Positions 9,207 through 59,735 of a stretch of 64,000 bases of DNA are shown here, piece after piece. The stretch is from Deltaproteobacteria bacterium. GTDB lineage: Bacteria; Desulfobacterota; Desulfuromonadia; Geobacterales; Pseudopelobacteraceae. The DNA is taken from assembly GCA_016182975.1 (NCBI GenBank), contig JACPFJ010000026.1, positions 91,132 through 155,131 on the forward strand, in the 5' to 3' direction. Position numbers and translations under genes: made by a program. The stretch's first letter is position 1. Each line of letters starts with the position of its first letter. Below the pieces are notes generated by a model. It was given only the letters and a program-made list of their open reading frames with translations. It had not been told where the DNA came from and did no database searches.

Positions 9207-9253
9207 GGTCTCACCTCTCTTTCGCCTGATTTTGATATTATGAAATATTGTTT

Positions 9254-9269
9254 TGCATGTGGCATGCCA
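9254..9269 (-). promoter_or_regulatory. candidate sigma54 -24/-12 promoter for the ligase operon
   Basis: Minus strand TGGCATG-CCAC-ATGCA (consensus TGGCACG-N4-TTGCA). Confidence 0.8.
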
Positions 9270-9365
9270 CATGGGTTTTATCCGTATAAAAGAGTATAAC
9301 ACAATGTTTATATTGTGAAATATTTCAAAATATAGTTTATCTGCAATTGGATGGAAAACAGAGCA

Positions 9366-31980: not shown

Positions 31981-32778
31981 TCATTGCCGAGCGCCGCGGA
32001 GATCGCCCGCCAGGTGATGAACGGAGTGGACGCGAACCCCGTCCAGGGCCTGGCCGATGATCAGGGCCTCGGCGGTCCTGGAGGGCATTAGGCGCAGAAT
32101 TTCGGCAATTCGGGCGCCCCCCTCGCGCCGTCCGGGGTCGTCGGCCTTGTTGAGAAAGATGAAGCGGCGGGCCCGGGGCGGCGCCCCCTTGAAGGGGCCG
32201 AGCGGATGGGCGAAGAGACGTGCCAGGGCAGATTCGGTGATGGTTTCCCCCGCGGAGAGCAGCATAATCTTCCCGGCGAGCTCGGCGCGGAAGACCAACT
32301 CCTCGGTCAGGGGTTTGCCTAGGACCTCCAGACCCGCCACGGCGACCAGTACGGTCGTGTTGTCGGGAATGACCGGTTCGTGCTCTGCGGGGGCCTTGAG
32401 GGGGCGGCGGGCCGAGCCGTCGGCCTCCACCAGGATCCAGTCGAACAGCCCCGACTCTTCGAAGAGACGGATCGTCTCCGGGGCGAACCCCTTGAGCTTG
32501 CCGGCCCCGGCCAGCTGCGCCGCCGCGGTGACTGGGCCGGAGCAACGACACGCCGAGGCCTGCCGAAGGATCATTGCCGGGTCGGCATCCACGAGCACCG
32601 TTTCTGACTGCTCCGCCGTGGGAACGAATATCCTGGTCGTGGTCGTGGTCAGGACCCGCTGCCCTGACCGGCAGAGCTGCCGGGCCAGGTGGAACATCAG
32701 GCTCGTCTTCCCCCCCCCTCCGGTCAGGCTCAACACGCCCCGCGGTTCATGCATAAGTATTTCTTCAATCGACATCAT
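31981..32778 (-). CDS. yqeC: selenium cofactor biosynthesis protein YqeC-like
   Basis: GVLSLTGGGGKTSLMFHLARQL P-loop; VLTTTTTRIFVP; ILVEADGSARRPLKAPAEHEPVIPDNTTVLVAVAGLEVLGKPL; HPLGPFKGAP. Confidence 0.82.
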   Translation of the reverse strand: MMSIEEILMHEPRGVLSLTGGGGKTSLMFHLARQLCRSGQRVLTTTTTRIFVPTAEQSETVLVDADPAMILRQASACRCSGPVTAAAQLAGAGKLKGFAPETIRLFEESGLFDWILVEADGSARRPLKAPAEHEPVIPDNTTVLVAVAGLEVLGKPLTEELVFRAELAGKIMLLSAGETITESALARLFAHPLGPFKGAPPRARRFIFLNKADDPGRREGGARIAEILRLMPSRTAEALIIGQALDGVRVHSVHHLAGDLRGARQ

Positions 32779-32817
32779 TGAACGTCTCGCTGGCCGTTTG
32801 CCGGTGTTCCGCAATCG

Positions 32818-38205: not shown

Positions 38206-38619
38206 TTATTTCTTCGGACTCCAGTCGATAAGCGGACGTGTGGACTCGATATCGAAAAAGACCGCGTACTTTACCATCTGCGCCGCCTTTTCGTTGGCGA
38301 TTTCAGCAACATGGGCCTTTACGCCGTCCAGGTTGGGGCCGTCTTTCTCCATGGAGCGCAGCTTGAGATAGACCCTGCACCCCTGGGTATTCATGGGGTT
38401 CTCATGGGGCAGCACGCTCATGAAGACGGCCCGGCCGGTCTCCAGCAGGTTCTGGGCGGTGCGGGTGTCGCCCATGGCCACGATCAGGGTCAACTCATCG
38501 GGCATGTAGGCCGAACCGAACACCGCCACATTGGGGTATCCCTTCCGGTCGGCGGTTGCGAGGACCCCGACCCGGCCGGGGGCGTTGACAAGCTCCTTGA
38601 CAGCATTGGAATCGATCAT
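38206..38619 (-). CDS. pyridoxamine 5'-phosphate oxidase-like flavin protein
   Basis: ALEADS-like start, GVLATADRKGYPNVAVFGSAYMPDELTLIVAMGDTRTAQNLLETGRAVFMSVLP; overlaps Mo subunit. Confidence 0.78.
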   Translation of the reverse strand: MIDSNAVKELVNAPGRVGVLATADRKGYPNVAVFGSAYMPDELTLIVAMGDTRTAQNLLETGRAVFMSVLPHENPMNTQGCRVYLKLRSMEKDGPNLDGVKAHVAEIANEKAAQMVKYAVFFDIESTRPLIDWSPKK

Positions 38620-40925
38620 CGGCCTTTTCCCTCCTGTTTTTTCTTTGCATCCAGGGCCTGCAGGACCTTCTCGGGCGTAATCGGCATCTCGGTGAAACGT
38701 ACCCCGATGGCGTCGTACACTGCATTGAATATGGCCGGAATTACCGGCTGGATCGGTCCCTCGCCGGCCTCCTTGGCCCCGAACGGGCTGTCGGGATCAT
38801 AGCTGTCGACAAAGGTGGTCCTCAACTCGGGGACGTCGGCCATGGTCGGGATCTTGTAGTCGTGCAGGGATGGATTGAGCAGCCGCCCGTCCTTTCCGAC
38901 CTTGATCTCCTCGAACAGGGCCTGCCCCATCCCCATGACAATGGAGCCTTCGACCTGTCCCTCGACGCTGACCGGGTTGATCGGCTGACCGCAGTCGCCG
39001 GCCTCTGTGACCCGCACGATGCGGACCTCGCCGGTTTCCGTATCGATATCGACCTCGGTGCACTGTGCGGAAAAGCCGTAGGTGGGACTGTGGCCTATGT
39101 TGGCGCCCTTGAAATTCCCGGTGCGCCGCGGCGGTGTGTAGTCGCCGGTGGCGGTGAGGGGACCGTGGGCGTCGATGTACTTCTCGACCACCTTCCAGAA
39201 ATCGATCTCCTTGCCTGGTTCGAAGACGGAGAAAATCTTGCCGTTTCGCGCCTCGAGCTGCCCGGGGCGCACACCGAGCTGGATGGCGGCCACCGGCATG
39301 ATCTTCTCCATGATGTTATCGGCGGCCTTGCAAACGGCGCTTCCGGCCGCCACCGTCACCCGGCTGGCAAAGGTCCCCAGATCGAAGGGGGCCAATGAGG
39401 TGTCGCCGCTGACCACATGGACGGATTCAAAAGGAAGTCCGAACTTCTCGGCGGCCATCATCCCGAGAACCGTGTCCGAGCCCTGCCCGATGTCGGTAGC
39501 GCCGCAATAGACCGTGACGCCGCTTTCGTTGTCCACGCGTATCATGGCCGAGGAGTGCGGTTTGTAGGCCATGTACAGTGTGTATGCGGTGCCGGAGATG
39601 TAATACCCGCCGGCCAGACCGATCCCCTTGCCGAAGGGGAGCTTGCCGTGCTTCTCCTTGTACCCGGAAAGCTCCACGGCCTGGTCGAGGCACTTGCGAA
39701 ATTCGCAGTGGCGTACCACCTGTCCGCTGACCGTTTCGTGGCTCAGGCCGATGGCGTTCCTCTTCTTGAGCTCGTAGGGGTTCATGCCGATGTCTATCGC
39801 AATCTGATCGAGCAGGCTCTCCAGTGCAAAGCGTGGCTGGACCCCGCCAAGACCGCGCATGGCGCCGCAGGTCGGTTTGTTGGTGTAGATCCGGCGGGCA
39901 TTAAAGCGGACGTTTTTGACATCGTAGGGGAGGTGAAGCATGGCCGCGGTATAGAAAAGGATGACAAGCCCCCATCCTCCGTAGCTGCCGCCGTCCATGG
40001 TGCCGTCATAGTCGATGGCCGTGATCATCCCGTCCTTGTCCACCCCCACCTTGACCCTCATCTCGATGGGGTGGCGGCCGCGATGCTGAAGGAACACGTC
40101 CTTGCGGGAGTAGAGGACCTTCACCGGCCTCCCGGCCTTGCGGGCGAGCAGGGCGGAGATCAACTCGTTGTTGGAGACCTCTCCCTTGCCCCCGAAGGCG
40201 CCCCCCACGCCGGTTACCTTGACATGGATGCGGTTCATCTCCATCTGGAGCACCTTTGAAAGGTGCCGGTGCAGATAATGGGGAACCTGGGTGGTGGACC
40301 AGATGAAGAGCTCGCCGTTGGTGTCGAACTTTGAAACCGCGCAGTGCGGCTCCATGAAGGCATGATTGACGTAGCTGGTCTTGAAGGTCTTTTCGAGAAC
40401 GTAATGGGAATTCCTGAAGGCCTCGTCCACATCGCCGAAATTCTGGTCGGCCTCATAGGCGATGTTGCCGGGGAAGCGGTTGTCCGCGTGGATCTTCACG
40501 GCGCCCTCGGCCATGGCCTCCTCGGGCGTGGTGTACACCGGCAGGGCCTCGTATTCGATCTCGATCAGGTCGAGGGCCTGCTCGGCCGTCTCGGCGTCCA
40601 CAGCCGCGACCGCTGCCACCGGTTCGCCGTAAAAACGCACCTTCTCATGGGCCAGGGCGTACTCGGTGGGCATCTGGGGGACGATGCCGTATTTGATCGG
40701 CGTCTCGGCCCCGATCAGAACCGCCTTGACCCCCGTCAGGGCCTCGGCCCTGGATGTGTCGATCCTGACTATCCGGCCATGGCCGATGTCGGAACGCTTG
40801 ATGCGGCCATGCAGCATCATGGGGAACTGAAGGTCGTCGGCGAACTCGTGTTCCCCCTTGACCTTTTTGGGACCGTCTTTCCTGGTGACCCCTTTTCCTA
40901 TAACATCAAAATCACGCTTGCTCAT
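38616..40925 (-). CDS. molybdopterin-binding subunit, xanthine dehydrogenase family (system 1)
   Basis: GVGGAFGGKGEVSNNELISALLARKAGRPVKVLYSRKDVFLQHRGRHP; MRGLGGVQPRFALESLLDQIA; PFGAKEAGEGPIQPVIPAIFNAVYDAIG. Confidence 0.93.
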   Translation of the reverse strand: MSKRDFDVIGKGVTRKDGPKKVKGEHEFADDLQFPMMLHGRIKRSDIGHGRIVRIDTSRAEALTGVKAVLIGAETPIKYGIVPQMPTEYALAHEKVRFYGEPVAAVAAVDAETAEQALDLIEIEYEALPVYTTPEEAMAEGAVKIHADNRFPGNIAYEADQNFGDVDEAFRNSHYVLEKTFKTSYVNHAFMEPHCAVSKFDTNGELFIWSTTQVPHYLHRHLSKVLQMEMNRIHVKVTGVGGAFGGKGEVSNNELISALLARKAGRPVKVLYSRKDVFLQHRGRHPIEMRVKVGVDKDGMITAIDYDGTMDGGSYGGWGLVILFYTAAMLHLPYDVKNVRFNARRIYTNKPTCGAMRGLGGVQPRFALESLLDQIAIDIGMNPYELKKRNAIGLSHETVSGQVVRHCEFRKCLDQAVELSGYKEKHGKLPFGKGIGLAGGYYISGTAYTLYMAYKPHSSAMIRVDNESGVTVYCGATDIGQGSDTVLGMMAAEKFGLPFESVHVVSGDTSLAPFDLGTFASRVTVAAGSAVCKAADNIMEKIMPVAAIQLGVRPGQLEARNGKIFSVFEPGKEIDFWKVVEKYIDAHGPLTATGDYTPPRRTGNFKGANIGHSPTYGFSAQCTEVDIDTETGEVRIVRVTEAGDCGQPINPVSVEGQVEGSIVMGMGQALFEEIKVGKDGRLLNPSLHDYKIPTMADVPELRTTFVDSYDPDSPFGAKEAGEGPIQPVIPAIFNAVYDAIGVRFTEMPITPEKVLQALDAKKKQEGKGR

Positions 40926-41403
40926 CGCACCCCTCCCCGGAAAGAAGCCTGCCGGCATGTTCAACCGCTTCTATGATCTTGGCGTAACCGGTGCACCGGC
41001 ACAGGTTGCCGGCCAGCGCGGTCTTGATCTCGTCCTGGCTGGGATGGGGGTTTTCATCGAGCAGCGCCTTGGATGAAAGCACCATCCCCGGGGTACAGAA
41101 GCCGCACTGAACGGCCCCCTTGTCGATGAACGCCCTCTGTACGGGGTGCAGCTCCGATCCTCTGCTCAGCCCTTCGATGGTGGTGATGGCCTTGCCCGCG
41201 CAGGCCACGGCCAGGGTGATGCACGACAGGGTCGGCCTGCCGTCGATGAGGACGGTGCAGGCCCCGCAATCGCCGACGCCGCACCCCTTTTTCGTTCCCG
41301 ACAGGCCCACCGTCTCGCGGATCACGTCAATCAGATATGCGGCGGGGGATATCGCCACATCGAAATTTTCGCCGTTTATCTCCAGCTTGATCAGTTTTTT
41401 CAC
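40912..41403 (-). CDS. 2Fe-2S subunit of Mo-hydroxylase (system 1)
   Basis: GTKKGCGVGDCGACTVLIDGRPTLSCITLAVAC; QCGFCTPGMVLSSKALLDENPHPSQDEIKTALAGNLCRCTGYAKIIEAV; probable GTG start. Confidence 0.94.
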   Translation of the reverse strand: MKKLIKLEINGENFDVAISPAAYLIDVIRETVGLSGTKKGCGVGDCGACTVLIDGRPTLSCITLAVACAGKAITTIEGLSRGSELHPVQRAFIDKGAVQCGFCTPGMVLSSKALLDENPHPSQDEIKTALAGNLCRCTGYAKIIEAVEHAGRLLSGEGCDEQA

Positions 41404-41405
41404 GC

Positions 41406-42296
41406 CTAGCCCCTCCTTTCGCCGATACGGTGCAGACATTCTTCCAATGCCCTGCGGGTCAATACGCCGATCACCCTGTTGCGATATTGCGCCGAGGCGC
41501 GCACGTCGTCGATGGGAGTCGCCTCCTGAACAACCCCGTCGCAGGCCGCGGCGAAGAACTCCTCGCCGATCCGCATCCCCTTGAGTTTCTGCTCCGTGAC
41601 CACGGCCCGATAGGTGACCGGCCCAACCGAACCCATGGCAAGCCGCACCTCGTTGACCGATGTGCCGTCCTCGCCGAGCTCCAGGTAGGCGCCTATGTTG
41701 AGCATGTCGATCTCCATGGCCTTTCTGAGCCCCTTGAAGCGGTAGGAAACGGCTGCCCGCGCCGGAAGGGGGGGCAGCCGGAATGCCTTGACGTACTCTC
41801 CGGTCTCCAGGGCGGTTTTGCGATAGGAGAGAAAGAAGCGGCTGATGGGGAGCGTTCGTTCTCCTCCCTGCCTTGCGATCAGCAGTTCGCAGTCGTGGGC
41901 CAGCAGGACCGGTGGGGTCTCGGCCGCCGGCGAGGCGTGGCAGATGTTGCCCGCCATGGTCGCCATCCAGCGCACCTGGTTCGAACCGAGGTTTGCAGCG
42001 GCAAAGGCCAGTGCCGGCGCGTGCTCTTTCACGAGCGGGCTCCGTTCTATCTCGGCGATCTTGGTGCCCGCCATGATCGTCACTCCCCGCACCGGATCGT
42101 AGGAGATCCCCCGCAGTTCGGGCAGGTCGGAGATGTCGATCAGGAGCCGGGGTGCCAGCAGCTTTTCCTTGATCAGAACATGCAGATCGGTGCCACCCGA
42201 CAGGATTTTTGCATCCTCCGCCTTTGCCGCATAGATGGATTCGAACTCTCTCAACGATGCAGGTTTTTCGTATTCAATCGGTTCGGAATGCATCAT
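41406..42296 (-). CDS. FAD-binding subunit of Mo-hydroxylase (system 1), no extra Cys loop
   Basis: AKILSGGTDLHVLIKEKLLAPRLLIDIS; GSNQVRWMATMAGNICHASPAAETPPVLLAHDCEL. Confidence 0.92.
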   Translation of the reverse strand: MMHSEPIEYEKPASLREFESIYAAKAEDAKILSGGTDLHVLIKEKLLAPRLLIDISDLPELRGISYDPVRGVTIMAGTKIAEIERSPLVKEHAPALAFAAANLGSNQVRWMATMAGNICHASPAAETPPVLLAHDCELLIARQGGERTLPISRFFLSYRKTALETGEYVKAFRLPPLPARAAVSYRFKGLRKAMEIDMLNIGAYLELGEDGTSVNEVRLAMGSVGPVTYRAVVTEQKLKGMRIGEEFFAAACDGVVQEATPIDDVRASAQYRNRVIGVLTRRALEECLHRIGERRG

Positions 42297-44052: not shown

Positions 44053-46383
44053 TTATCCCCCCCCGAGCATGGCCAGGAGGGTGACCTCATCCCCGCTGCG
44101 GACAACAGCGTCCTGTTCGTTGTCCAGCACCATGTTGCCGTTGACCACGATATTCAAGGTGTCATCCCCCAACTGCTCTGCCGCATGGGGCAGCCGTTCA
44201 TTAAGCGCTGCCCTCAGCTCGGCTACGTTTGCTACCGGCTGATCGACTATGACCGCCCCTTCCGGCGCCCCGGGGATACCATAGGGGAGCCTGACCATGA
44301 CGCTGAAGCCGGTGGTCGCTTCCGCCAGCCTGCGGTGCCATTCCAGCGCGGGGACAGCGGCCGCATTGAGACCGCTTACCGCATAGAAGCGGGACCTCAT
44401 TTCCACGAACCTGGCCCGGTCGATCCGCTCCCCGGCAAAGCGGCCGACCTTGATCTCCTCGTCGAACCACCTGTCGGGCAGGGTATCGTCCTCTTCCGTC
44501 AGGCCGATCCGCGCATTTATGAGCCGTTCGAGCCCCATGATGTTGCGGCCGATCTCGTCTAGCTGCCCGGCGGTAAACGTCTCACCCGTCAGTTCGGTGA
44601 GTTGCCCGGCAAAGTCTTCGTTGTCGGCGGTGGAGGGAGAATTGAACAATTTGGTCGAAAAGCGGCACATGCCGACCGAGTCACCGACTGCGTACGTATT
44701 TTCGCAACGGCGTACGGCGTATTCCTTGCCTTCGTAGCTGTTCGGCTCCGTCGCAACCGGGCCGCCGTAGAGGGCGTTTTTGACCTTGCTGTCCCCGTTG
44801 ATCTTGGCGTTGATCTCCAGGGTGGGCCGGTTGCGGAGATGGTCCATGCCGCGGGTAGCCACGGCCAGGCCGAGGGCAAACCCCTTGAGAATGCGCGCGT
44901 CATGGGGATCGGACTGGAACAGCCCCTTGATCGTCATGCGGTAGTTGAGGGCCTCCGCCGGATACTTGCCCCGTTCCACAGCACGATTGGAGTCGGCAAT
45001 GACGTCGCCGAAACCTTCCCTTTTGGCGGTCATGAAGAGCAGCTTCTCCACCACGTGATAATTACCCCAACTCAGGTCGAGCCCGCCGGTATCCTCATCC
45101 GTGATGATCCCCCTCTGGTAGAGCTCCATGGCCCAGGAAATGGCGCTGCCGGCGCTGGCCGAGTCCAGGCCGAGCTCATTGAGGATATTGTTCAGGCGCA
45201 GGACCTGCTCCGGTTCCCTGATGCCGATCATGGGGCCCATCTTCTGCAGGGTGGTGTATTCGGGACCGTCACCCTTGTCATACTGGTCGAATTTGCCATC
45301 GCCGTTGATCCCCTGGTAGCTCTTAGCCTTCCTGTGCTCGATCCCCGCCTGGGCCTGGTCGTAGCTGGCGTTGCCGGTCAGCCCGGTGAGGGCCCTGGCC
45401 CCCCACCCCCCCTTCCCTTCGGGGGTGAGGTCGTTCAAAGGACGGCAGCGGACCGGGCACTTGAGGCAGCCGTCCATGCCGGTACGATAGGCGTCGAAGT
45501 TGTCGGCATCGAGAGAATCGCTCCAGCTGGTCTCCTGGTTGTTCCTGGTCCCCATGGCGCCGAGGATGCGGCTCGGCTTGTAGAGGAACGGTGTGCCGAC
45601 GCTCTTCAGGGCGTTTTTGATGACGCTGGCCGAAAGGATCTTCTGGGCAATGGCCCTGTTGTTCTCCTTGAAGGCCTGGGAAACGGCGGGTTGCTCGCCG
45701 CGCCCCTGGATCATTATCGCCTTGAGCTTGAGGGAGCCCATTTTTGCCCCGCCGCCGCCCCGGCCATAGATCGCCTTGACCCCCCCCATGATGCCGGCGA
45801 AGAGGACCTGGTTTTCTCCGGCGCTGGTGATGCGGGCCATGGCCATGTCCTTGCGCTCGCTGCAGGAAAACGCCCTTTCGACGGCGCGCGTGACATCACT
45901 GTTGTCCATGCCCAGGTAGGGGGTGGCGTCATGAAAGGCGACCTCCCGGCCGCTGATCCGGAGCAGGGTCCACTCCGCTGCCCGGCCGTACAGGACCACG
46001 TGGTCGTAGCCGTGAAACTTGAGAAAGGTGGGAAAGGCGTCGCCGCAGTTGCTGTCGAGGATGGCGTAACTCTCCGGCGAGATGCCGCTCACGTTGCCGC
46101 GGGTGGCGGTGGGGACGGTTCCCGTCAGGGCGCCGCTGCCGAAGATCAGCGGGACCTGCGGGTCCAGTGGCTCTCTCCCGTCCGGCAGGAGGTTGTAGAG
46201 GAGATACATGTTCGCCCCGCGATTGGTGAGGACGGTGTGGATCACCTCTTTCGAGAGGTAGCGGGAAAACGATTCTCTCCGTTCCAGGTCGACGAACAGC
46301 ACCGCCCCCTGGGTCCGATATTGCGGACGATCGTGCATCCGCGCCGCCAGTCGCTCAACCTTTGTCCTGATGTCCATGTTCAT
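44053..46383 (-). CDS. aldehyde:ferredoxin oxidoreductase with C-terminal MoaD/ThiS-like domain
   Basis: AOR motifs GGGGAKMGSLKLKAIMIQGRG, GCLKCPVRCRPLND, GLDSASAGSAISWAMELYQRG; C-terminus VAELRAALNERLPHAAEQLGDDTLNIVVNGNMVLDNEQDAVVRSGDEVTLLAMLGGG. Confidence 0.88.
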   Translation of the reverse strand: MNMDIRTKVERLAARMHDRPQYRTQGAVLFVDLERRESFSRYLSKEVIHTVLTNRGANMYLLYNLLPDGREPLDPQVPLIFGSGALTGTVPTATRGNVSGISPESYAILDSNCGDAFPTFLKFHGYDHVVLYGRAAEWTLLRISGREVAFHDATPYLGMDNSDVTRAVERAFSCSERKDMAMARITSAGENQVLFAGIMGGVKAIYGRGGGGAKMGSLKLKAIMIQGRGEQPAVSQAFKENNRAIAQKILSASVIKNALKSVGTPFLYKPSRILGAMGTRNNQETSWSDSLDADNFDAYRTGMDGCLKCPVRCRPLNDLTPEGKGGWGARALTGLTGNASYDQAQAGIEHRKAKSYQGINGDGKFDQYDKGDGPEYTTLQKMGPMIGIREPEQVLRLNNILNELGLDSASAGSAISWAMELYQRGIITDEDTGGLDLSWGNYHVVEKLLFMTAKREGFGDVIADSNRAVERGKYPAEALNYRMTIKGLFQSDPHDARILKGFALGLAVATRGMDHLRNRPTLEINAKINGDSKVKNALYGGPVATEPNSYEGKEYAVRRCENTYAVGDSVGMCRFSTKLFNSPSTADNEDFAGQLTELTGETFTAGQLDEIGRNIMGLERLINARIGLTEEDDTLPDRWFDEEIKVGRFAGERIDRARFVEMRSRFYAVSGLNAAAVPALEWHRRLAEATTGFSVMVRLPYGIPGAPEGAVIVDQPVANVAELRAALNERLPHAAEQLGDDTLNIVVNGNMVLDNEQDAVVRSGDEVTLLAMLGGG

Positions 46384-46475
46384 CACCTCTGCACTGCTCG
46401 TTTTGACTATATTTTTTATTATACTCCTGAAAGATGCCTGGCCGATATACGCTTGAGGCGCCATCCCGGCTATAT

Positions 46476-46671
46476 CTTGCATACAAGTTAGTTTATCAAA
46501 AATAACCCTCTATTCACGCCAACACACCCCAAAACAGCGCCCCTTCCAAGGCATCACAATTCGGCAGCCTTGCCATAATAACTTGATATTTGAGGACCCG
46601 TCAGCTGGATTCGCCCGGCATGTCTGCCGTTTTCCTTATGCAAGATTACCATTATTTATCTTGTATGCAAG
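46476..46671. promoter_or_regulatory. pair of dodecamer operator-like sites in inverted orientation upstream of AOR
   Basis: CTTGCATACAAG (46476-46487) and its exact reverse complement CTTGTATGCAAG (46660-46671). Confidence 0.55.
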
Positions 46672-46848: not shown

Positions 46849-47889
46849 TCAGTTCTGGTATTTTTTCAGCATGGCCTTGGCATCATCGAGGAGCGCCCTG
46901 CCATTGGCGCCTTTCGCCCCGACCTCCTTGACCCACTCATCGTCAACGGATTCGGTCGCCTTCGCCCAACGCCTGTATTCTTCATCGCTTAATATATTGA
47001 TGGTGTTATGGCGATCGACAGCGGCCTTACGTGATTGCGCACTGAAACTATCCCAGGACTTGCCCACCCATCTGGAAGTCTCGCGTCCGCTGTTATTGTC
47101 GATGACCTTCTTCAGTTCGGGAGACAGGCCGTTGTACCTGGCCTGATTCATGGCAAACACCATTAGTGTGTTTGAAATGCCTGCGTGTCCCGGGCCGGGC
47201 TCGGTGTGGGTCTTGCAGATCTCATGCAGCTTGAATGCCGTCGTTACCTCCCACGGCAATGTGGCGCCATCCACCACATTCTTGCCAATTGCCTCCGGAA
47301 TCGCCGGCGACGGCATCTGCACCGGCATTGCCCCGAGCGCAGCCAGTGCTTTGGCGGAAAAACGCGTAGGCACGCGGACCTTTAACCCTTTGAGGTCTTC
47401 CAGGGTCTTTACCGACTTTTTACCAAAGTGAATCGGGGCCATGTCGTGAAAATGGGTCGCAATCAGTTTGACCCCCTTGAACTCGTCCATGGCATTTTTT
47501 TGAATATAGTCCCACAGGGCAGGGCTTCCCTTTTCCGCGGTATTGATCATGAACGGCAATTCGAACACCTCTGTTTTGGTGAAACGTCCCGCCTGAAATG
47601 TTGCGGCTGTCCAGATAACATCGGCAACTCCGTCCCGCGCCTGGTCGAACAGCTGGGCCGGAGTCCCGCCAAGCTGCATGGAAGGATAGATCTGGCACTT
47701 GATTTTGCCGCCCGATTCCTTGCCGATTTTTTCACACCAGGGGATGATCAACTTCTGGTGTGCGTTGGAACTGGCCGGCAGAAAGTGTGCGACCTTCAGG
47801 GTCACCACGTCCGATGCGGCAAATGCAACGCTGGAGCCAAACGCGATTACGACCAGGGTGGATACCAGGCATGCTCTGAACAGTTTCAT
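46849..47889 (-). CDS. TRAP transporter solute-binding protein (DctP family), paralogue 4
   Basis: VVTLKVAHFLPASSNAHQKLIIPWCEKIGKESGGKIKCQIYPSMQLGGTPAQLFDQARDGVADVIW. Confidence 0.92.
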   Translation of the reverse strand: MKLFRACLVSTLVVIAFGSSVAFAASDVVTLKVAHFLPASSNAHQKLIIPWCEKIGKESGGKIKCQIYPSMQLGGTPAQLFDQARDGVADVIWTAATFQAGRFTKTEVFELPFMINTAEKGSPALWDYIQKNAMDEFKGVKLIATHFHDMAPIHFGKKSVKTLEDLKGLKVRVPTRFSAKALAALGAMPVQMPSPAIPEAIGKNVVDGATLPWEVTTAFKLHEICKTHTEPGPGHAGISNTLMVFAMNQARYNGLSPELKKVIDNNSGRETSRWVGKSWDSFSAQSRKAAVDRHNTINILSDEEYRRWAKATESVDDEWVKEVGAKGANGRALLDDAKAMLKKYQN

Positions 47890-47938
47890 ATACGCCTCCT
47901 TTTTTTGGTTACGACCGACAGGTCTCGGATGATAACGA

Positions 47939-49510
47939 TTAATCCCAGCTATCAAGCTTCATGGTCCCTTTTTCCTCCAGGTTTCTGTGCATGTTGAATG
48001 ACTTGTAAAGCATGTGCGGCTCGTGGGCGCTGCCGCTTGCGATGCCCGCTTTCAGGGCGCGATCGTAGTACTCCTGAAGGAGCGGCCGGTAGTCGGGGTG
48101 CGCGCATCTGTCGATGACCCTCCGGGCCCGCTGCCGGGGAGCGAGTCCGCGCAGGTCGGCAAGCCCCTGTTCGGTCACGAGGATATCGAGATCATGCTCG
48201 GTATGATCGACATGGGTAACCATCGGCAGGACGCAACTGATGCCGGTGGGGTCTGTCCTGGAAGGCCTGGTCGAGGGGGTGTGCATGATGGAGAGGTAGG
48301 CGTTGCGCATGAAATCGCCCGAACCGCCGATGCCGTTGATCATCCGGGAGCCGTTGATGTTGGAGGAGTTGGCGTGGCCATAGATATCGAACTCTACCGG
48401 CGTGTTCATGGCGATCACCCCGAGACGGCGAATCAGTTCGGCATGGTTGGTGATCTGGACCGGCCGCAGCAGGGTCTTCCCCTTGTAGTTGTCCCAGTCG
48501 GCCAGGAGGCGCTTAAGTCCCTGCTCGGAGAGCGAAAAGGAGGCGGCGGTCACGAAATCGAGCTTGCCGCTATCCATCAGGTCAAGGAGATTGTCCTGAA
48601 AGACCTCGGTCCAGACGGTCAGATGGCTGAAACTGCTGGTGAGCAGGCCCCCCACCACGGCATTGGCAATGGAGCCGACCCCGGACTGCAGGGGGAGCAG
48701 GTTTTCCGGCAGACGCCCGTTCTTCACCTCCCAGTGCAGGAAATCGATCAGGTGGGCGGCGATGAGCCGGGAGTCCTCGCCGGGAGCCCGCAAGGGCCGG
48801 CCGACCGGGTCCTTGCCCGACTCCACGATCGCAACGATCCGCTCCGGGTCGCAGGGAATGGAGGTGGCTCCGATCCGGTCCCTGACGGTCAGGATATTAA
48901 GGGGGGCCCGGTGCGGTGGGGCGGCAACGGCGACACAGTCGTGCACCCCCTCCAGGAGAGGGAGCCGCGTATTGAGCTCGATGATGATCTTTTCCGCCCG
49001 CGCGACAATTTCGTGGATGATGCCGACCGACAGGGTCGGCACGATTCCCCCCTCCTCGGTGATACAGCTCGCCTCGATAATGGCGAGATCGATCTTGCCG
49101 CCGTTATCGAGGGTGTAGTAACCGTAGCCGAAGTCCTGGGCATACATGGAAAGATGGCGATCACCGAAGTTGACCTCCCCCACGTTGACCGCCCGCTGGA
49201 TATGCAGACCCTGCTGCTGCGGCCAGCGCCGGTCCAGCATGCCCAGTCTCGACCAGCGGTCATCGACGTCAATGCCGATGGAGGCGCCGGTGTACACATT
49301 GAAGCGCATCTTGCCGGCAAGCCCCTTGTCTTCCACGTGATCGGCCAGCACGGCCGGCACCAGTTTGGGGTGCCCCTCGGAAAACCCCGAAAATCCGAGA
49401 TACATGCCGTCCTTAAAAAATGAGACAGTGTCTTCGGCCGTCATGATCCTAGAGCGGAGTTTTTTATGCCTGATCCGTTCCAGCAGTTGTGTCGATTGTT
49501 CGGTTGCCAT
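47939..49510 (-). CDS. acetyl-CoA hydrolase/transferase family CoA-transferase, copy 2
   Basis: Near-identical motif set to 23721-25286 (GMYLGFSGFSEGHPKLVPAVLADHVE; NGIGGSGDFMRNAYLSIMHTPSTRPSRTDPTGISCVLPMVTHVDHTEHDLDILVTEQGLADLRGLAPRQRARRVI). Confidence 0.92.
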   Translation of the reverse strand: MATEQSTQLLERIRHKKLRSRIMTAEDTVSFFKDGMYLGFSGFSEGHPKLVPAVLADHVEDKGLAGKMRFNVYTGASIGIDVDDRWSRLGMLDRRWPQQQGLHIQRAVNVGEVNFGDRHLSMYAQDFGYGYYTLDNGGKIDLAIIEASCITEEGGIVPTLSVGIIHEIVARAEKIIIELNTRLPLLEGVHDCVAVAAPPHRAPLNILTVRDRIGATSIPCDPERIVAIVESGKDPVGRPLRAPGEDSRLIAAHLIDFLHWEVKNGRLPENLLPLQSGVGSIANAVVGGLLTSSFSHLTVWTEVFQDNLLDLMDSGKLDFVTAASFSLSEQGLKRLLADWDNYKGKTLLRPVQITNHAELIRRLGVIAMNTPVEFDIYGHANSSNINGSRMINGIGGSGDFMRNAYLSIMHTPSTRPSRTDPTGISCVLPMVTHVDHTEHDLDILVTEQGLADLRGLAPRQRARRVIDRCAHPDYRPLLQEYYDRALKAGIASGSAHEPHMLYKSFNMHRNLEEKGTMKLDSWD

Positions 49511-49721: not shown

Positions 49722-51521
49722 TCAGAACCAGCTGTCCTGCATCGCGTAGCAGGTCGGTTCGAGGCTGCCGAGTATCTTTGCCTGGTGGTGCACCTTGGGC
49801 AGCTCCCAGTTGAAGAAGAACGAGCAGGCTTGCATCTTGCCACGATAAAAATCCCGGTTGCCCTCACTGGTGGATTCGCACTGCCTTGTCGCCACCTGCG
49901 CCTGACGCAGCCAGATCCAGGCGATGACCACGTGCCCCAGCATCTCCAGATAGAGCGAGGCATTGGCCAGGAAAAGGTCGGCCCCGGTCAGCTCCCTCGC
50001 CTCCAACAGCCTCTCCGTGGTCTCCCGCGCCTGCCGTAATGCCTGACCCAGATCCCTGGACCACGCGGTCAAAGATTCATCGCCGGCCGTCTCGGCAATG
50101 GTTGTGCCTATCTCCTCCATCAGCAGCTTGAAGGCCTCGCCGTTTCCCATGGAGACCTTGCGCCCCAGGAGATCGATACCCTGAATGCCGTTGGTCCCTT
50201 CATGGATCTGACTGAGGCGGTTATCGCGAAACAGCTGCTCCACCGGATACTCGCGCGTGTAGCCGTACCCGCCGAGGATCTGGACGGCCTGGCTGTTCGC
50301 CTCGAAGCAGAACCGCGAGGGCCAGGCCTTGACGATCGGGGTGAGGATGTCGAGCAGGAGTCCCGCCTTGCGCCTCTCCTCCGCCCCCCCTCCCCTTTGC
50401 CGGTCGACGAGCAGCGAGGCGTAGAGTATCAGCGCGAGAGAGCCCTCGACGTAGGCCTTCTGCATGAGCAGCATGCGGCGGATATCGGCGTGCTCGATGA
50501 TCATGACCTGCCTGGAGAGCGGGTCCTTGCCGCTGGGGAGGCGCCCCTGGGGACGATTGCGGGCATAGTCCAGGGAATAGAGATACCCGGCGTAGCCGAT
50601 GCAGGCGGCAAACTGGCCGATATTGATGCGGGCCTCGTTCATCATGTGAAACATGCAGGAGAGCCCCTGGTTCGGTTCGCCGACCAGGTAGCCGAAGCAG
50701 CGGCCGTTTTCACCGAAATTGAGCATGGTCGAGGTCGTCCCCCGCCAACCCATCTTGTGAATGAGCCCCGACAGCGCCACGTCGTTGTCTTCGCCCACGC
50801 TGCCGTCCGGATCGACCCGATAGCGCGGCACGATAAAGAGCGATATCCCCTTTACGCCGGCCGGGGCCCCCTTGATGCGCGCCAGCACCAGGTGGACGAT
50901 GTTCTCCGAGAGTTCATGCTCTCCGCCGGAGATGAAGATCTTGTTCCCCCTGATCAGGTAGTGCCCCTGCGGCGCCGGTTCGGCAGTGGTGATGAGATCG
51001 GAAATAGAGGAGCCGGCCTGCGGCTCGGTCATGGCCATGGTGCCGAAGAAGCGGCCGGTCATCATCGGCTCCAGATAGAGCCTCTGCTGCTCCGGCGAGG
51101 CGTGGGCCGCCAGCAGGTGGCTGTTGGCCATGGTCAATTGGGCATAGCTGGCGGTTGCGATGTTGGCGGCGCTGACAAAGGAAAGGACGGCGTTGTTGAG
51201 CACCGTGGGGAGCTGTATGCCCCCTAGCTCCGCGCTGTGGGAGGCGCTGAAAAAACCGGCCTCGGCAAAGGCCTGCAGCGCCTCCTTCACCTCGGGGATG
51301 AGCCGCACCCTCCCGTCCACCACCACCGGTTCATTCCGGTCCCCCTCCGCGTTGTGGGTATGGAACTTCTCCCTGGCGATCTGCTCGGCCACGTCGAGAA
51401 TGGCCTTGAAGGTCTCCCGGCTGTGCTCTTCGTAGCAGGGATACGTGGTCAACTGTTCAACATCGAGCAGTTCATGGAGCAGGAAGTCGATGTCGCGGCG
51501 ACTGATGAATGGTATTGACAT
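49722..51521 (-). CDS. acyl-CoA dehydrogenase, large DmdC-like type
   Basis: GTMAMTEPQAGSSISDLITTAEP; FISGGEHELSENIVHLVLARIKGAPAGVKGISLFIVPRY; QAVQILGGYGYTREYPVEQLFRDNRLSQIHEGTNGIQGIDLLGRK. Confidence 0.9.
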   Translation of the reverse strand: MSIPFISRRDIDFLLHELLDVEQLTTYPCYEEHSRETFKAILDVAEQIAREKFHTHNAEGDRNEPVVVDGRVRLIPEVKEALQAFAEAGFFSASHSAELGGIQLPTVLNNAVLSFVSAANIATASYAQLTMANSHLLAAHASPEQQRLYLEPMMTGRFFGTMAMTEPQAGSSISDLITTAEPAPQGHYLIRGNKIFISGGEHELSENIVHLVLARIKGAPAGVKGISLFIVPRYRVDPDGSVGEDNDVALSGLIHKMGWRGTTSTMLNFGENGRCFGYLVGEPNQGLSCMFHMMNEARINIGQFAACIGYAGYLYSLDYARNRPQGRLPSGKDPLSRQVMIIEHADIRRMLLMQKAYVEGSLALILYASLLVDRQRGGGAEERRKAGLLLDILTPIVKAWPSRFCFEANSQAVQILGGYGYTREYPVEQLFRDNRLSQIHEGTNGIQGIDLLGRKVSMGNGEAFKLLMEEIGTTIAETAGDESLTAWSRDLGQALRQARETTERLLEARELTGADLFLANASLYLEMLGHVVIAWIWLRQAQVATRQCESTSEGNRDFYRGKMQACSFFFNWELPKVHHQAKILGSLEPTCYAMQDSWF

Positions 51522-51671: not shown

Positions 51672-52652
51672 TCATGCCCCGCCCAGCTTTTCCAGGGCAT
51701 CCCTGACCAGCACGCCGACCAGCTCTTTGCGGTAGCTCGCCGACACCTCCATATGAGAGACTGTTCTGGTCTGTTTCCGTGCCATCTCAACCAGCAGGTC
51801 GATCAACGCGGGTGTTAAGCCCGCTTCTGACGGGTAGTCCGGTGGGGGGGCGACAACCAGTGGTGAGGAGCCCACACCGGTGATGGCGATGCGCAACCGC
51901 GCAATCGCGGCCGTCGTCCCGCTCATGACCGCCGCCACCCCTGCAATGGGGAAGTCCAGGGCGCCGCGCTTGCGGTACTTGAGGTAGGTGCCGCGCTGTC
52001 CCGGCAGCGGAGCGGGAAGGATCACCTCTGCCAGCAGCTCGCCGGGTTGCAGATCGGTGTGACGCATGCCGTCGTCAACAAAGAATTCCTCGATCGGCAC
52101 GATGCGCTCCCCGCCTGGGTTCACCAGCCGTACCTTTGCACCCAACGCGAGGAGCGCGGCTGCGGTATCGCCGCAGTAAAGCGCATGGCAGCGCCTGCTC
52201 CCCTTGGCCATGTAACAGACTGAACCTCCGTTCTTGAAGCAGTCGGGCCGGGCCTGCCGCCACGAGCGCCCCTGCTGGAAGTACCAGCAGCGCGGCTCCA
52301 GGCAGATGTTGCCGCCGATGGTCCCCATGTTCTGCAACTGGGCCGCCCCCACCGCGAGGGCCGCTTCCGCGAGCATGGGGCAGCGCTCCAGCACCAGGTC
52401 GGAGCAGCGCACCTGGGTGAGGGTGGCCAGCGCACCCACGTGCAGGTTTTCGCCGACCAGGGCGATACTGCCGAGGCCTTCCACTTTCTTCAGGTTGATG
52501 AGGCATTGCGGCTGCGTCACGCCGTACTTCATGCGCACCACCAGGTCGGTGCCGCCGGCGATCAGCGCCGCCTTGTCCCCCTGCTCCTTCAGGAGCCTAC
52601 AGGCCTCGGAGAGGGTTCTCGGCTCGAAATGCTCGAACTTTTTCAATCTCAT
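51672..52652 (-). CDS. hcrB: FAD subunit of Mo enzyme with extra [4Fe-4S]-type Cys loop (4-hydroxybenzoyl-CoA reductase beta-like)
   Basis: Cys at 122, 138, 146, 155: RCWYFQQGRSWRQARPDCFKNGGSVCYMAKGSRRCHALYCGD. Confidence 0.85.
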   Translation of the reverse strand: MRLKKFEHFEPRTLSEACRLLKEQGDKAALIAGGTDLVVRMKYGVTQPQCLINLKKVEGLGSIALVGENLHVGALATLTQVRCSDLVLERCPMLAEAALAVGAAQLQNMGTIGGNICLEPRCWYFQQGRSWRQARPDCFKNGGSVCYMAKGSRRCHALYCGDTAAALLALGAKVRLVNPGGERIVPIEEFFVDDGMRHTDLQPGELLAEVILPAPLPGQRGTYLKYRKRGALDFPIAGVAAVMSGTTAAIARLRIAITGVGSSPLVVAPPPDYPSEAGLTPALIDLLVEMARKQTRTVSHMEVSASYRKELVGVLVRDALEKLGGA

Positions 52653-54982
52653 GACTGTCCCTCCGCGGTTGCCTTGGCCTGCGCCTTCTTATCCCTCAGG
52701 GCCTTGAGCACCTTTTCGGGGGTGACGGGGAGATCGGTAATCCAGACCCCGATGGCATTGTGAATGGCGTTGACGATCGCCGGAATGGTGGAGACCTGGG
52801 TCCCCTCCCCCGACTCCTTGGCGCCGAAAGCCCCCACCGGATCGATGGTCTCGATGGAAAGGGAGACCATCTCCCGGGGGAGGTCGTAGACGGTGGGGAG
52901 ACCGTAGGCGGTCAGGTTCGGGGTCAGGTTCTGGCCATTTTCCTCGACACAATGTTCGTAAATGGTATGGCCGACCCCTCCGGCGATGGAACCTTCGTGC
53001 TGCCCCTCGACGGCAAGCGGATTCAAGGCGAATCCGAGGTCGTGCGCCACCACCATGCGCGGTACCGTCACCCTGCCGGTCCGGGTATCCACCTCGACCC
53101 AGGCGGCCTGGGTGCCGAAGCTGTAGGCCCCGCTTGCGTCCCCCTCCCCGGTCTCGAAGTTCATGGGGGGGACGGTCTGCCCCCAGCTCCCCTGGCCGAT
53201 GATCGAGGTGCCCGAACCCCAGGCAACGGTCTGACGGGTGAGGTCGCGAAAGCGGAGCGCCTTGTCCGGCGCCCCCCTGACGAACACCTTGCAGTCTCGG
53301 AACTCGATTGCCTCGGGCGCCGCCTTCAGCAGTTCCGCCGCCACCGGCAGGAGCTGTTGCCGCGCGTCCCGCGCCGCGATCAGCACCGCGTTCCCCGCGG
53401 TGGAGCTCACCCGGCTCCCGAAGCTCCCCGGATCGACCGGGGTGACGGTGCTGTCGGTCTGGGGGACAAAGACATCCTCCAGCCGTATGCCGAGGACCTC
53501 GGCCACGATCATGGCGAGTACGGTTTCGGAACCCTGGCCGGAATCGGTCGATCCTGTCAGGAGCGACGCCGTGCCGTCCTCGTGGACCTTGATCACCGCC
53601 GTGCAGCAGTTGTGGCCGGTCAGACGGGCGCCGGACTGGAACGAATTGCAGGCGATCCCCACCCCCGTTGCGATGCGGCCGAGCGGCTCATTCTCCTTCT
53701 CCCGCCAGGGGCGGTAGTGGGTATCCCACTCCGCGGCCCGTACCGCCCCGGTGATCGTCTCCTGCAGGCCGCAACTGTGTATGTTCATCCCGCTGGCGGT
53801 CCTGTAGCCCGTATAGACCGCGTTTTTCTGCCTGATCCGTACCGGGTCGAGGCCTAGGTCATGGGCGATCATCTCCAGTTGCACGTCCGCCGCGTAGCGG
53901 ATCTGCTGGATGCCGTTACCCCGCTGGGCAACCGAGATGGGGCGGTTGGTGTAGGCGCGAAATGCCTCGTATCGCACATTGGGCACGACGTAGGGGAGAT
54001 TCAGGAAATAAAAGGCATTGGCGATGGTGCTCGGCCCCACCCCGGTGCCGGCCCCGCCGTCGGCGATGATGCGGCAGTCGTGGGCCAGGATGGTGCCGTC
54101 CTTCCTGACCCCGGTCTTCAGCCGGACGATCATCGGGTGCCTACGCCGGTGAGAGGAGAGCACCTCTTCCATGGTGAGCACGATCTTCACCGGGCGGCCC
54201 GACTTCTTGGAGAGCATCACCGCGCAGAAGTCGACCGGATACCCCCCGTTCTTGCCGCCAAAGCCGCCGCCGATGTACGGCTGGATGAGCCTGACGTTGC
54301 TGAGCGGCACGTTGAAGCAGTTGGAGAGGTTGCGGTAGAGGAAGTAGGGGCTCTGCTTGGAGGCCCAGATGGTGATCCGGTTGGGGGCCTCCCAGTGGGC
54401 CAGCGCGGCGTTCGGCTCCAGAAAGCCGTGCAGGACCGACTGGCTGTAGAACCTGTCCTCACGGACGTAGTCCGCCTGCCGGAAGGCCTCGTCCACGTCG
54501 CCGAAGCCGGTTTTCATATGGACGCTGATATTGCCCGGCTTGTCATCGTGGAGTTGCGGCGCCCCCTCCAGCAGGGCCTCCTCGGGATCGGTAACGGCAG
54601 GCAGGACCTCGTAATCGACCCGGATCAGCTCCAGGGCCTCCAGGGCGGTATCCTCGTCCACGGCCGCCACTGCCGCCACCTCTTCCCCGAGGTAGCGCAC
54701 CTTGCCCCGGGCCAGGGGATACTCGTCGCGCGTGTCGGCCCGCAGGCCGTAGCGGTAGTCGCCGAAATCCTCTCCCACGATGACCGCGCGAACCCCCGGA
54801 AGCTGCTCCGCCCGCGTGGTATCGATGCGCAGAATCCGCGCGTGGGGATGGGGGCTGCGCAATATTTTGCCGTGAAGCATCCCGGGGAGCGACAGGTCGT
54901 CGGTAAAACGGGCGCTCCCCGCCGCCTTGACAGGTCCGTCTACTCTGGGCAATCGCTTGCCGAGCACTGCATAATCTGACAT
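52649..54982 (-). CDS. hcrA: molybdopterin-binding subunit, xanthine dehydrogenase family (system 2, HcrA-like)
   Basis: IGGGFGGKNGGYPVDFCAVMLSKKSGRPVKIVLTMEEVLSSHRRRHP; AVEGQHEGSIAGGVGHTIYEHC; AFGAKESGEGTQVSTIPAIVNAIHNAIG. Confidence 0.85.
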   Translation of the reverse strand: MSDYAVLGKRLPRVDGPVKAAGSARFTDDLSLPGMLHGKILRSPHPHARILRIDTTRAEQLPGVRAVIVGEDFGDYRYGLRADTRDEYPLARGKVRYLGEEVAAVAAVDEDTALEALELIRVDYEVLPAVTDPEEALLEGAPQLHDDKPGNISVHMKTGFGDVDEAFRQADYVREDRFYSQSVLHGFLEPNAALAHWEAPNRITIWASKQSPYFLYRNLSNCFNVPLSNVRLIQPYIGGGFGGKNGGYPVDFCAVMLSKKSGRPVKIVLTMEEVLSSHRRRHPMIVRLKTGVRKDGTILAHDCRIIADGGAGTGVGPSTIANAFYFLNLPYVVPNVRYEAFRAYTNRPISVAQRGNGIQQIRYAADVQLEMIAHDLGLDPVRIRQKNAVYTGYRTASGMNIHSCGLQETITGAVRAAEWDTHYRPWREKENEPLGRIATGVGIACNSFQSGARLTGHNCCTAVIKVHEDGTASLLTGSTDSGQGSETVLAMIVAEVLGIRLEDVFVPQTDSTVTPVDPGSFGSRVSSTAGNAVLIAARDARQQLLPVAAELLKAAPEAIEFRDCKVFVRGAPDKALRFRDLTRQTVAWGSGTSIIGQGSWGQTVPPMNFETGEGDASGAYSFGTQAAWVEVDTRTGRVTVPRMVVAHDLGFALNPLAVEGQHEGSIAGGVGHTIYEHCVEENGQNLTPNLTAYGLPTVYDLPREMVSLSIETIDPVGAFGAKESGEGTQVSTIPAIVNAIHNAIGVWITDLPVTPEKVLKALRDKKAQAKATAEGQS

Positions 54983-55016
54983 ACCTACTCCTTTTGTATG
55001 GAAATTGGCGTTGTTC

Positions 55017-55487
55017 TCAGGCCAGCCTTGTCGCGGCGTCCTCGATCGCCTCCACGATCTTGGCGTAGCCGGTGCAGCGGCAGAGGTTCCCGGCGATGGC
55101 CCGGCGCACCTCATCCGGGTCGGGATGCGGGTTCTCGTCAAGGAGCGCCTTGGCCGACATAACCATCCCGGGGGTGCAGAAGCCGCACTGCACCGCGCCG
55201 CAATCGACGAAGCTCCGCTGGAGGGGATCGGGACGATCGCCGTCCCCCAGCGCCTCGATGGTGATGATCTCCCGCCCCTGTACCTCCACCGCCAGTGTCA
55301 GGCAGGACAGGACCGCCTTGCCATCGATGATGACCGTGCAGGCGCCGCAGTCTCCGACGCGGCAGGCCCTTTTCGTGCCGGTGAAACCCAGCTCCTCCCT
55401 CAGCACCTCCAACAGGGTCCGGTGCGGCTGCTCCATCACGGTGTGGAGCGTACCGTTTACCTTCAACTGCATCTGTTGCATCGCCAT
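55017..55487 (-). CDS. hcrC: 2Fe-2S subunit of Mo enzyme (system 2, HcrC-like)
   Basis: GTKRACRVGDCGACTVIIDGKAVLSCLTLAVE; QCGFCTPGMVMSAKALLDENPHPDPDEVRRAIAGNLCRCTGYAKIVEAI. Confidence 0.88.
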   Translation of the reverse strand: MAMQQMQLKVNGTLHTVMEQPHRTLLEVLREELGFTGTKRACRVGDCGACTVIIDGKAVLSCLTLAVEVQGREIITIEALGDGDRPDPLQRSFVDCGAVQCGFCTPGMVMSAKALLDENPHPDPDEVRRAIAGNLCRCTGYAKIVEAIEDAATRLA

Positions 55488-55654: not shown

Positions 55655-55707
55655 GTGATTTTTTGCAGGCGCTGTAGCGAGAATTCAGGCTCCGGGTGAG
55701 GTGGGCA

Positions 55708-57240
<1,533 letters not shown>

Positions 57241-57612: not shown

Positions 57613-57640
57613 GGGCGCTGATTGCAGCGCCCTTTTTTTT
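57613..57640 (+). terminator. Rho-independent terminator
   Basis: GGGCGCTG-ATTG-CAGCGCCC followed by T8. Confidence 0.9.
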
Positions 57641-57669
57641 ATGGTATGACGATTACAGGAGATTATTGT

Positions 57670-57996
57670 ATGGGTGTCGTAGCGTTAACGGATATACAAA
57701 ATTTTGTGGCTGATATGGCTCGTGAATTTTTGCCTGAAAAGGTGATCCTGTTCGGGTCATATGCTCGTGGCTGCGCTGGGACTGAGTCGGATGTTGACCT
57801 GCTGGTGGTTATGCCCGAGGATGTTTCGGGTGCAAGAGTGGCTGCCGACATCATCACGCGCCTGAAACCGACCCTGCCGGTTGAGCTTGTTGTCCGCTCA
57901 TCCCGCCAGATCGAGGAACGGCTGGCTCTGAATGATTTCTTTTTGCGCGAAATCATGATCACGGGAAAAGAACTGTATGCAGCCCCTCACCACTGA
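57670..57996 (+). CDS. MNT-type minimal nucleotidyltransferase (antitoxin of HEPN/MNT pair)
   Basis: VILFGSYARGCAGTESDVDLLVVMPEDV (GSx10DxD). Confidence 0.9.
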   Translation: MGVVALTDIQNFVADMAREFLPEKVILFGSYARGCAGTESDVDLLVVMPEDVSGARVAADIITRLKPTLPVELVVRSSRQIEERLALNDFFLREIMITGKELYAAPHH

Positions 57997-58956: not shown

Positions 58957-59244
58957 ATGGTAGAAAACGAACCGCTGAAACCAAGTGAAGCAAAGAAGTT
59001 AATCCGTCACATCAAACACAACGGATTGATTCTGTTTTCTGATCCTCATGCAAGAGAACGCTTGCAGAAGCATAAAATGTCCACTGTGGATTGCATGAAC
59101 ATCCTTCGCGGCAGCATCGTAGATAACCCGGAATTCGAGAATGGGGAATGGAGATACCAGGTTCATACCGGAAAAATGGTAGTTATCGTTAGATTCGAGA
59201 ACGAAAATGAACTAATGATCGTAACAGCGTGGAGACTAAAATGA
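58957..59244 (+). CDS. DUF4258-family protein (candidate toxin)
   Basis: LILFSDPHARERLQKHKMSTVDCMNILRGSIVDNPEFENGEWRYQVHTGKMVVIVRFENENELMIVTAWR. Confidence 0.82.
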   Translation: MVENEPLKPSEAKKLIRHIKHNGLILFSDPHARERLQKHKMSTVDCMNILRGSIVDNPEFENGEWRYQVHTGKMVVIVRFENENELMIVTAWRLK

Positions 59245-59735
59245 AATGTCCAATATGTGGGAGAGCGGAAGTAACCTGGAATGTTCGGAATTATCACTAT
59301 GACGCATGTGGTCTTGATAACGTCATCCTGGTCGGAATTACCGTAGGCACTTGTCCTGAGTGTAATTGCTTGGTGCCCAAAATACCTCAAATGGAAGCTC
59401 TGCACGACTGTATTGCTCATGCACTCGTAAAGAAAGAAGAGCGACTCACGCCAGCCGAAATTGTATTCTTGAGGAAGTCGTTAGGTTGGTCAGGGACCGA
59501 CTTCGCGGCGAATATGCAGTGTGACAAGTCCCAAATTTCAAAATGGGAAAATGGTAAAGCGAATATGGGTAAGCAAACTGAGTTGCTGTTCCGCGAGATT
59601 GTGGCCGGAAGAAAGAAAATAACCGACTACAAGAGGGTAGACGCCGCACGCAAAGAGGCAAATAAGGTTGTTACGCTGTTCGTAAGGATGGCAGATAATT
59701 ACTGGGCGGAGCCTGAGTGGAGAGAAGCGGCGTAA
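59241..59735 (+). CDS. MqsA-like antitoxin (CxxC zinc domain + HTH)
   Basis: MKCPICGRAEV...GTCPECNCLVPKI...RLTPAEIVFLRKSLGWSGTDFAANMQCDKSQISKWENGKANM; ATGA overlap with upstream gene. Confidence 0.85.
   Translation: MKCPICGRAEVTWNVRNYHYDACGLDNVILVGITVGTCPECNCLVPKIPQMEALHDCIAHALVKKEERLTPAEIVFLRKSLGWSGTDFAANMQCDKSQISKWENGKANMGKQTELLFREIVAGRKKITDYKRVDAARKEANKVVTLFVRMADNYWAEPEWREAA

Follow-up and report, generated by a model that had tools for sequence, protein, structure and literature searches.

The four-cysteine loop in the FAD subunit of a molybdenum hydroxylase that we call system 2 almost certainly binds a [4Fe-4S] cluster, but the enzyme that carries it is probably not a 4-hydroxybenzoyl-CoA reductase (4-HBCR). 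Its catalytic subunit appears to belong to a paralogous line whose active site differs, and the loop is, in the trees and alignments compared here, the mark of an FAD-subunit lineage, not of a reaction. Our best overall explanation, to which we give a probability of roughly 0.4, is that system 2 is a non-4-HBCR paralogue that would act on a probably aromatic acyl-CoA in a ferredoxin-linked reductive dehydroxylation.

The window, that is, the whole stretch of DNA that was analysed, is 64 kb long, has 58% GC and lies within a 170 kb contig of a genome that is 66% complete. It contains two gene sets for molybdenum hydroxylases, each encoded on the minus strand, and the FAD subunit of the second is the subject of this finding. 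The features considered are the following:

38616-42296, minus strand: system 1, molybdenum hydroxylase gene set
41406-42296, minus strand: FAD subunit of system 1, 296 aa, loop insertion absent
51672-55487, minus strand: system 2, molybdenum hydroxylase gene set
51672..52652, minus strand: FAD subunit of system 2, 326 aa, FAD_binding_5 and CO_deh_flav_C (Pfam), best PDB match 1rm6_B
52188..52289, minus strand: four-Cys loop (Cys122-Cys155) of the system 2 FAD subunit, C-x15-C-x7-C-x8-C, predicted [4Fe-4S] site
52649..54985, minus strand: Mo catalytic (alpha) subunit of system 2, MoCoBD_1/2 and Ald_Xan_dh_C (Pfam)
55017..55487, minus strand: small (gamma) subunit gene of system 2, Fer2 and Fer2_2 (Pfam)
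49722..51521, minus strand: next operon gene, acyl-CoA dehydrogenase of the FadE/DmdC type, 599 aa from MSIPFIS (Pfam; PDB matches 8r1e, 6ijc, 6kpt)
47939..49510, minus strand: CoA-transferase, succinyl-CoA:acetate type (NF053853, 578.7 bits, cut-off 500)
46849..47955, minus strand: TRAP transporter solute-binding protein DctP (Pfam DctP), the last conserved operon gene in G000 and G224
55696..57240, plus strand: divergent GAF/sigma-54 activator (Pfam), probable operon regulator, 76% identical and in the same divergent position in G046, G053 and G224

The start of the system 2 alpha subunit (MSDYAVLGK) was set by comparison with orthologues, the open reading frame extending to 55141. Judged by the Pfam domains in its three neighbouring genes, system 2 has a heterotrimer layout of alpha (Mo), FAD and gamma (2x[2Fe-2S]) subunits, and MoCoBD domains, a Fer2/Fer2_2 small subunit, a FAD_binding_5 medium subunit and the catalytic Glu place it in the xanthine oxidase family. 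The window also encodes an MqsA-like antitoxin with an HTH domain (59229-59735) and, 1.2 kb off, a small nucleotidyltransferase (57622-57996).

The codons of Cys122, Cys138, Cys146 and Cys155 lie at 52287-52289, 52239-52241, 52215-52217 and 52188-52190, at differences of 16/8/9 residues. When the system 2 FAD subunit was searched against the PDB (phmmer), the top match was 1rm6_B, the 4-HBCR beta subunit HcrB of Thauera (E=6.9e-54). Residues 107-191 of the two proteins align without a gap, the four cysteines falling on same-numbered HcrB residues. The FAD subunit of system 1 lacks the whole insertion, and its top matches are CO-dehydrogenase medium chains. A sequence-only reading of this DNA had named these four cysteines, their spacing and the interval 52188-52289, all of which agree exactly with the open reading frame and the codon positions; the alignments likewise bear out its statements that the insertion is missing from the system 1 subunit and that the cysteines occupy the Thauera HcrB positions.

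The FAD-subunit alignment comprises 45 sequences, 28 of them with the exact 15/7/8 spacing, and the loop is present in it at L076, L112, L116, L124 and L127. Cys 122, 138, 146 and 155 are conserved in 28/28 of the homologues with exact spacing; among the other cysteines, Cys117 is kept in 26/28, and Cys 18, 50, 83, 91 and 160 in 2-11/28. For a protein with 10 Cys among 326 residues, the chance of cysteine at all four given positions is P=4.5e-7, and that of finding this spacing anywhere in the protein is about 1.3e-4. Taken together, the exact register with HcrB, the complete conservation and the low chance make it very likely that the system 2 loop holds a [4Fe-4S] cluster.

The catalytic subunit points elsewhere than to HcrA. 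As criteria for 4-HBCR we used the NCBIfam equivalogs TIGR03194, TIGR03195 and TIGR03193, whose curated cut-offs are inferences, not assays. The system 2 alpha subunit scored 717.9 bits on TIGR03194 (cut-off 994.55), the FAD subunit 271.8 bits on TIGR03195 (cut-off 404.55) and the gamma subunit 170.4 bits on TIGR03193 (cut-off 257.8), whereas the Thauera controls cleared their cut-offs (HcrA 1389 bits, HcrB 551.6 bits). On the HcrA model, the alpha subunit of the loopless system 1 reached 843 bits, above that of system 2. On the PaoC model, system 2 scored 261 bits against a cut-off of 1180, which leaves it outside PaoABC as well. In the alpha tree (45 rows), HcrA joins the alpha subunit of system 1 and six further rows in a clade with support of 100/100, and system 2 and its orthologues form a separate clade, also at 100/100; a forced clade of HcrA and system 2 was rejected by the AU test (p=7.53e-05). 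HcrA itself sits on a long branch, and support for pairing it with system 1 within the clade is poor (94/80). On scores and tree taken together, system 1 is the closer 4-HBCR candidate of the two in this window.

At the HcrA motifs, the system 2 alpha subunit has Asn at position 326 and NRPISVA for NTPPCGA, and the EPHA segment is absent, although Glu726, the catalytic residue, is conserved and the top PDB match is 1rm6, as for the FAD subunit. The Tyr326 segment, NTPPCGA and the EPHA insertion are common to HcrA, system 1 and the rest of the clade, with small variations. All of these HcrA residues lie near the Mo site, where Tyr326 presumably has a role. System 1 (38616-42296) keeps Tyr326 and the PTCGA motif despite its loopless FAD subunit. 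The proposal that system 2 is an enzyme of the 4-HBCR type thus survives in one half: the HcrB loop and the extra [4Fe-4S] cluster were a sound prediction, and the enzyme type is not supported, all three subunits being under their cut-offs and alpha outside the HcrA clade. The substrate is in all likelihood something other than 4-hydroxybenzoyl-CoA.

The question arises as to which complexes could reduce 4-hydroxybenzoyl-CoA in these bacteria. In the class-wide search, 15 genomes yielded alpha subunits that exceed the 4-HBCR cut-off, at 1194-1280 bits (loci L145-L159, in G221, G045, G049, G023, G215, G054, G208, G057, G214, G053, G046, G266, G224, G071 and G219). In 13 of the FAD subunits beside these alphas, the sequence runs across the loop site with no insertion; the remaining two are covered in part and share about 70% identity with a loopless subunit. 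Since the FAD subunit next to every one of the 15 is of the loopless type, the strongest candidates for 4-HBCR in these bacteria carry no four-Cys loop, and the loop does not serve as the 4-HBCR marker it had been taken for. BamA/Oah, a marker of benzoyl-CoA degradation, is above cut-off in all 15 genomes vs 44/277 in the class (naive P about 1e-13, ignoring descent). It is possible that L145-L159 represent a loopless form of 4-HBCR. In G046, the loopless complex adjoins system 2, past the regulator, YqeB and XdhC genes. In the phenol cluster of Desulfatiglans anilini, a 4-HBCR alpha gene is reported to stand beside genes annotated as the medium and small subunits of CO dehydrogenase (PMC6114531); judged by annotation alone, that arrangement would agree with a complex lacking the loop. 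Should the loopless complexes be true 4-HBCRs, a difficult low-potential reduction would not require the extra cluster, and what the cluster is for could be tested directly by a comparison of the two forms. To us, the loopless 4-HBCR-like lineage is a more surprising result than system 2 itself.

Two further observations concern HcrA or HcrA-like proteins. The loopless HcrA complexes L174 (G045) and L144 (G046) lie near aldehyde ferredoxin oxidoreductase-like, short-chain dehydrogenase and butyrate-kinase-like proteins, named from sequence beginnings only and in two families. At L168 (G266:C676:65-2131), an HcrA-like alpha with a 760-bit match contains two in-frame TGA codons, for which a pseudogene, an assembly error or recoding are candidates.

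The loop has its own distribution. FAD-subunit profile matches at E<=1e-30 occur in 19/277 genomes of the window's class; the 4-HBCR beta model is matched at E<=1e-50 in 92/396 genomes of the phylum, and none passes its curated cut-off. In a plasmid collection, only distant homologues were found (best 32% identity, none above 60%). The loop sequences recovered by the class-wide search and alignment form several spacing classes, and in the window's class loop-bearing FAD subunits accompany several catalytic subunits other than the above-cut-off HcrA. The corresponding site in E. coli PaoB, whose annotation is FAD-binding Fe-S subunit of an aldehyde dehydrogenase, also holds a loop with four cysteines, differently spaced. 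In an FAD-subunit tree built without the loop columns, the HcrB-type loop lineage stands apart from PaoB and from the loopless types (95/88); its sole characterised member among the sequences used is a reductase. By these patterns, inheritance of the loop is separate from that of the 4-HBCR catalytic subunit, and the decoupling runs in both directions. The HcrB loop is easily misread as a signature of reductive dehydroxylation, but it does not tell the direction of the reaction, contrary to the earlier expectation of reductive rather than oxidative chemistry: a four-Cys loop is also present in PaoB, the subunit of an aldehyde-oxidising enzyme.

Three relatives from the same taxonomic order (G046, G053 and G224) keep the gene order gamma-alpha-FAD-acyl-CoA dehydrogenase-CoA-transferase together with the divergent sigma-54 activator. 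Operon identity to them is 76-95%, with 81-95% for the three enzyme subunits and 90-92% for the acyl-CoA dehydrogenase, whose position is conserved in all three; the CoA-transferase is likewise kept in the corresponding operons. The next gene encodes a transporter protein, DctP in the window and in G224 (84% identical); in G053 it is a monocarboxylate symporter of the ActP/MctC-like kind. The nearest solved relatives of DctP are 5im2 and 5i5p, some of which we take to bind benzoate-type ligands. Orthologues of the system 2 alpha subunit are present in four genomes at 87-95% identity; the fourth, in G219, is more distant and has different neighbours, including 2-oxoacid:ferredoxin oxidoreductase genes. 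The system 2 operon itself contains neither a 4-hydroxybenzoate-CoA ligase nor a ferredoxin gene. A phenylacetate-CoA ligase-like (PaaK-like) protein is encoded at window positions 7863-9302 (534 bits, cut-off 646), near TRAP binding protein and amidohydrolase genes. The window's aldehyde ferredoxin oxidoreductase (44053-46482) was weighed as a possible member of the operon and dropped, as it is absent from the relatives' operons; unusually, it is fused at its C-terminus to a ThiS/MoaD-like domain.

BamA/Oah is above cut-off in all four genomes with system 2 orthologues, vs 44/277 in the class (naive P=5.7e-4, ignoring shared descent); no BamA or BcrB/C-type genes were found in the window's own genome, which is 66% complete. 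Each of the four also carries a separate loopless HcrA above the cut-off, and system 2 is therefore unneeded as their 4-HBCR; G046, G053 and G219 additionally carry an HcrA-clade enzyme with a loop. Maturation genes for YqeB (365 bits, cut-off 220) and XdhC adjoin system 2 in G046 and G053. In the window, a gene for YqeC, of selenium cofactor biosynthesis (31981-32814; 193.6 bits, cut-off 73), lies a few kb from system 1. Together with the YqeB and XdhC genes in the relatives, it suggests that these bacteria may have a molybdenum hydroxylase that depends on selenium.

In the scheme that we favour, a carboxylic acid, probably aromatic, would be imported by the TRAP or symporter protein and turned into its CoA thioester by the CoA-transferase, and the acyl-CoA dehydrogenase and the molybdoenzyme would then process the thioester. 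The latter would remove, in a ferredoxin-linked reduction, a ring hydroxyl activated by the thioester, with electrons passing from the [4Fe-4S] cluster to FAD, then to the two [2Fe-2S] clusters and on to Mo. The conserved operon, BamA and the separate loopless HcrA of the relatives all point to the breakdown of an imported acid, probably aromatic and not 4-hydroxybenzoate, in which system 2 would catalyse a step on the CoA thioester. A CoA thioester is a likely substrate, as read from the neighbouring genes only. On the direction of the reaction, we lean only mildly to reduction, because the sole characterised member of the HcrB-type lineage that we used is a reductase; conversely, the acyl-CoA dehydrogenase could indicate an oxidative, beta-oxidation-like route. 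A more daring version, which we consider doubtful, is that system 2 would add a third kind to the reductive molybdo-dehydroxylases of the xanthine oxidase family, driven by ferredoxin via its HcrB-type [4Fe-4S] subunit. Its substrate would be the thioester of CoA with an aromatic acid, either a hydroxylated aryl-alkanoic one or one with other substituents, while a loopless complex would reduce 4-hydroxybenzoyl-CoA.

Four other readings were weighed against ferredoxin-linked dehydroxylation. It is possible, though less likely than not, that system 2 is an oxidative hydroxylase or dehydrogenase, in which Mo would oxidise an acyl-CoA (for example, by ring or side-chain hydroxylation) and the electrons would travel by way of FAD and the [4Fe-4S] cluster to an acceptor resembling ferredoxin. 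Members of the xanthine oxidase family are mostly oxidative (PMC12771579), the Fe-S subunit PaoB of an aldehyde oxidoreductase has four cysteines at the loop site, and an acyl-CoA dehydrogenase and a CoA-transferase share the operon, as in oxidative acid degradation. However, PaoB differs in spacing (10/8/18) and groups away from the HcrB-type FAD lineage, whose one characterised protein here belongs to a reductase.

A second alternative, that system 2 is after all a 4-HBCR of the HcrABC type driven by low-potential ferredoxin, has in its favour the identical positions of the HcrB loop, the top PDB match of both large subunits to 1rm6, the conserved Glu726 and the benzoyl-CoA pathway of related genomes. 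We consider it unlikely, given three subunits well under cut-offs that the Thauera control clears, an alpha subunit excluded from the HcrA clade (AU p=7.5e-5), the missing Tyr326 and neighbouring motifs, another above-cut-off HcrA in the relatives with system 2, and an operon that lacks the ligase for 4-hydroxybenzoate. A reductive enzyme of the Ucdh kind, with NADH feeding FAD and the loop structural or secondary, is slightly less credible again: Ucdh, the second known reductive member, takes NADH (PMC12771579), but the exact HcrB loop favours a low-potential route. Finally, chance cysteines or a vestigial loop without a cluster are highly improbable, for although a structure prediction of the FAD subunit alone, without relatives, was uninformative on geometry (pLDDT 38), the 28/28 conservation, the exact register with a crystallised cluster site and a chance below 1e-6 speak against them.

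Among known systems, Thauera aromatica HcrABC (1rm6, 1sb3) resembles system 2 in its three-subunit layout, loop residue numbers, catalytic Glu and position as top PDB match of alpha and FAD subunits. System 2 departs from it in its sub-cut-off scores, an alpha outside the clade, the missing Tyr326, NTPPCGA and EPHA, and a ligase-free operon. E. coli periplasmic PaoABC (5g5g) is likewise of the xanthine oxidase family and has four cysteines in the corresponding loop of its FAD subunit, which we take to hold the [4Fe-4S] cluster seen in the 5g5g crystal. Its spacing is 10/8/18, in contrast to 15/7/8 in system 2; it is distant in both the alpha and FAD trees, and it oxidises aldehydes. The urolithin C dehydroxylase Ucdh of Enterocloster bolteae, the second known reductive dehydroxylase of the family, uses NADH as donor (PMC12771579). 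Compared by description only, it indicates that reductive dehydroxylases of this family need not be 4-HBCRs, and it is set apart from our proposal for system 2 by that donor and by its substrate, a free phenolic lactone. The loopless complexes at L145-L159 share with system 2 the alpha-gamma-FAD gene set and a setting in genomes with BamA, but their alpha subunit exceeds the 4-HBCR cut-off and their FAD subunit has no four-Cys loop.
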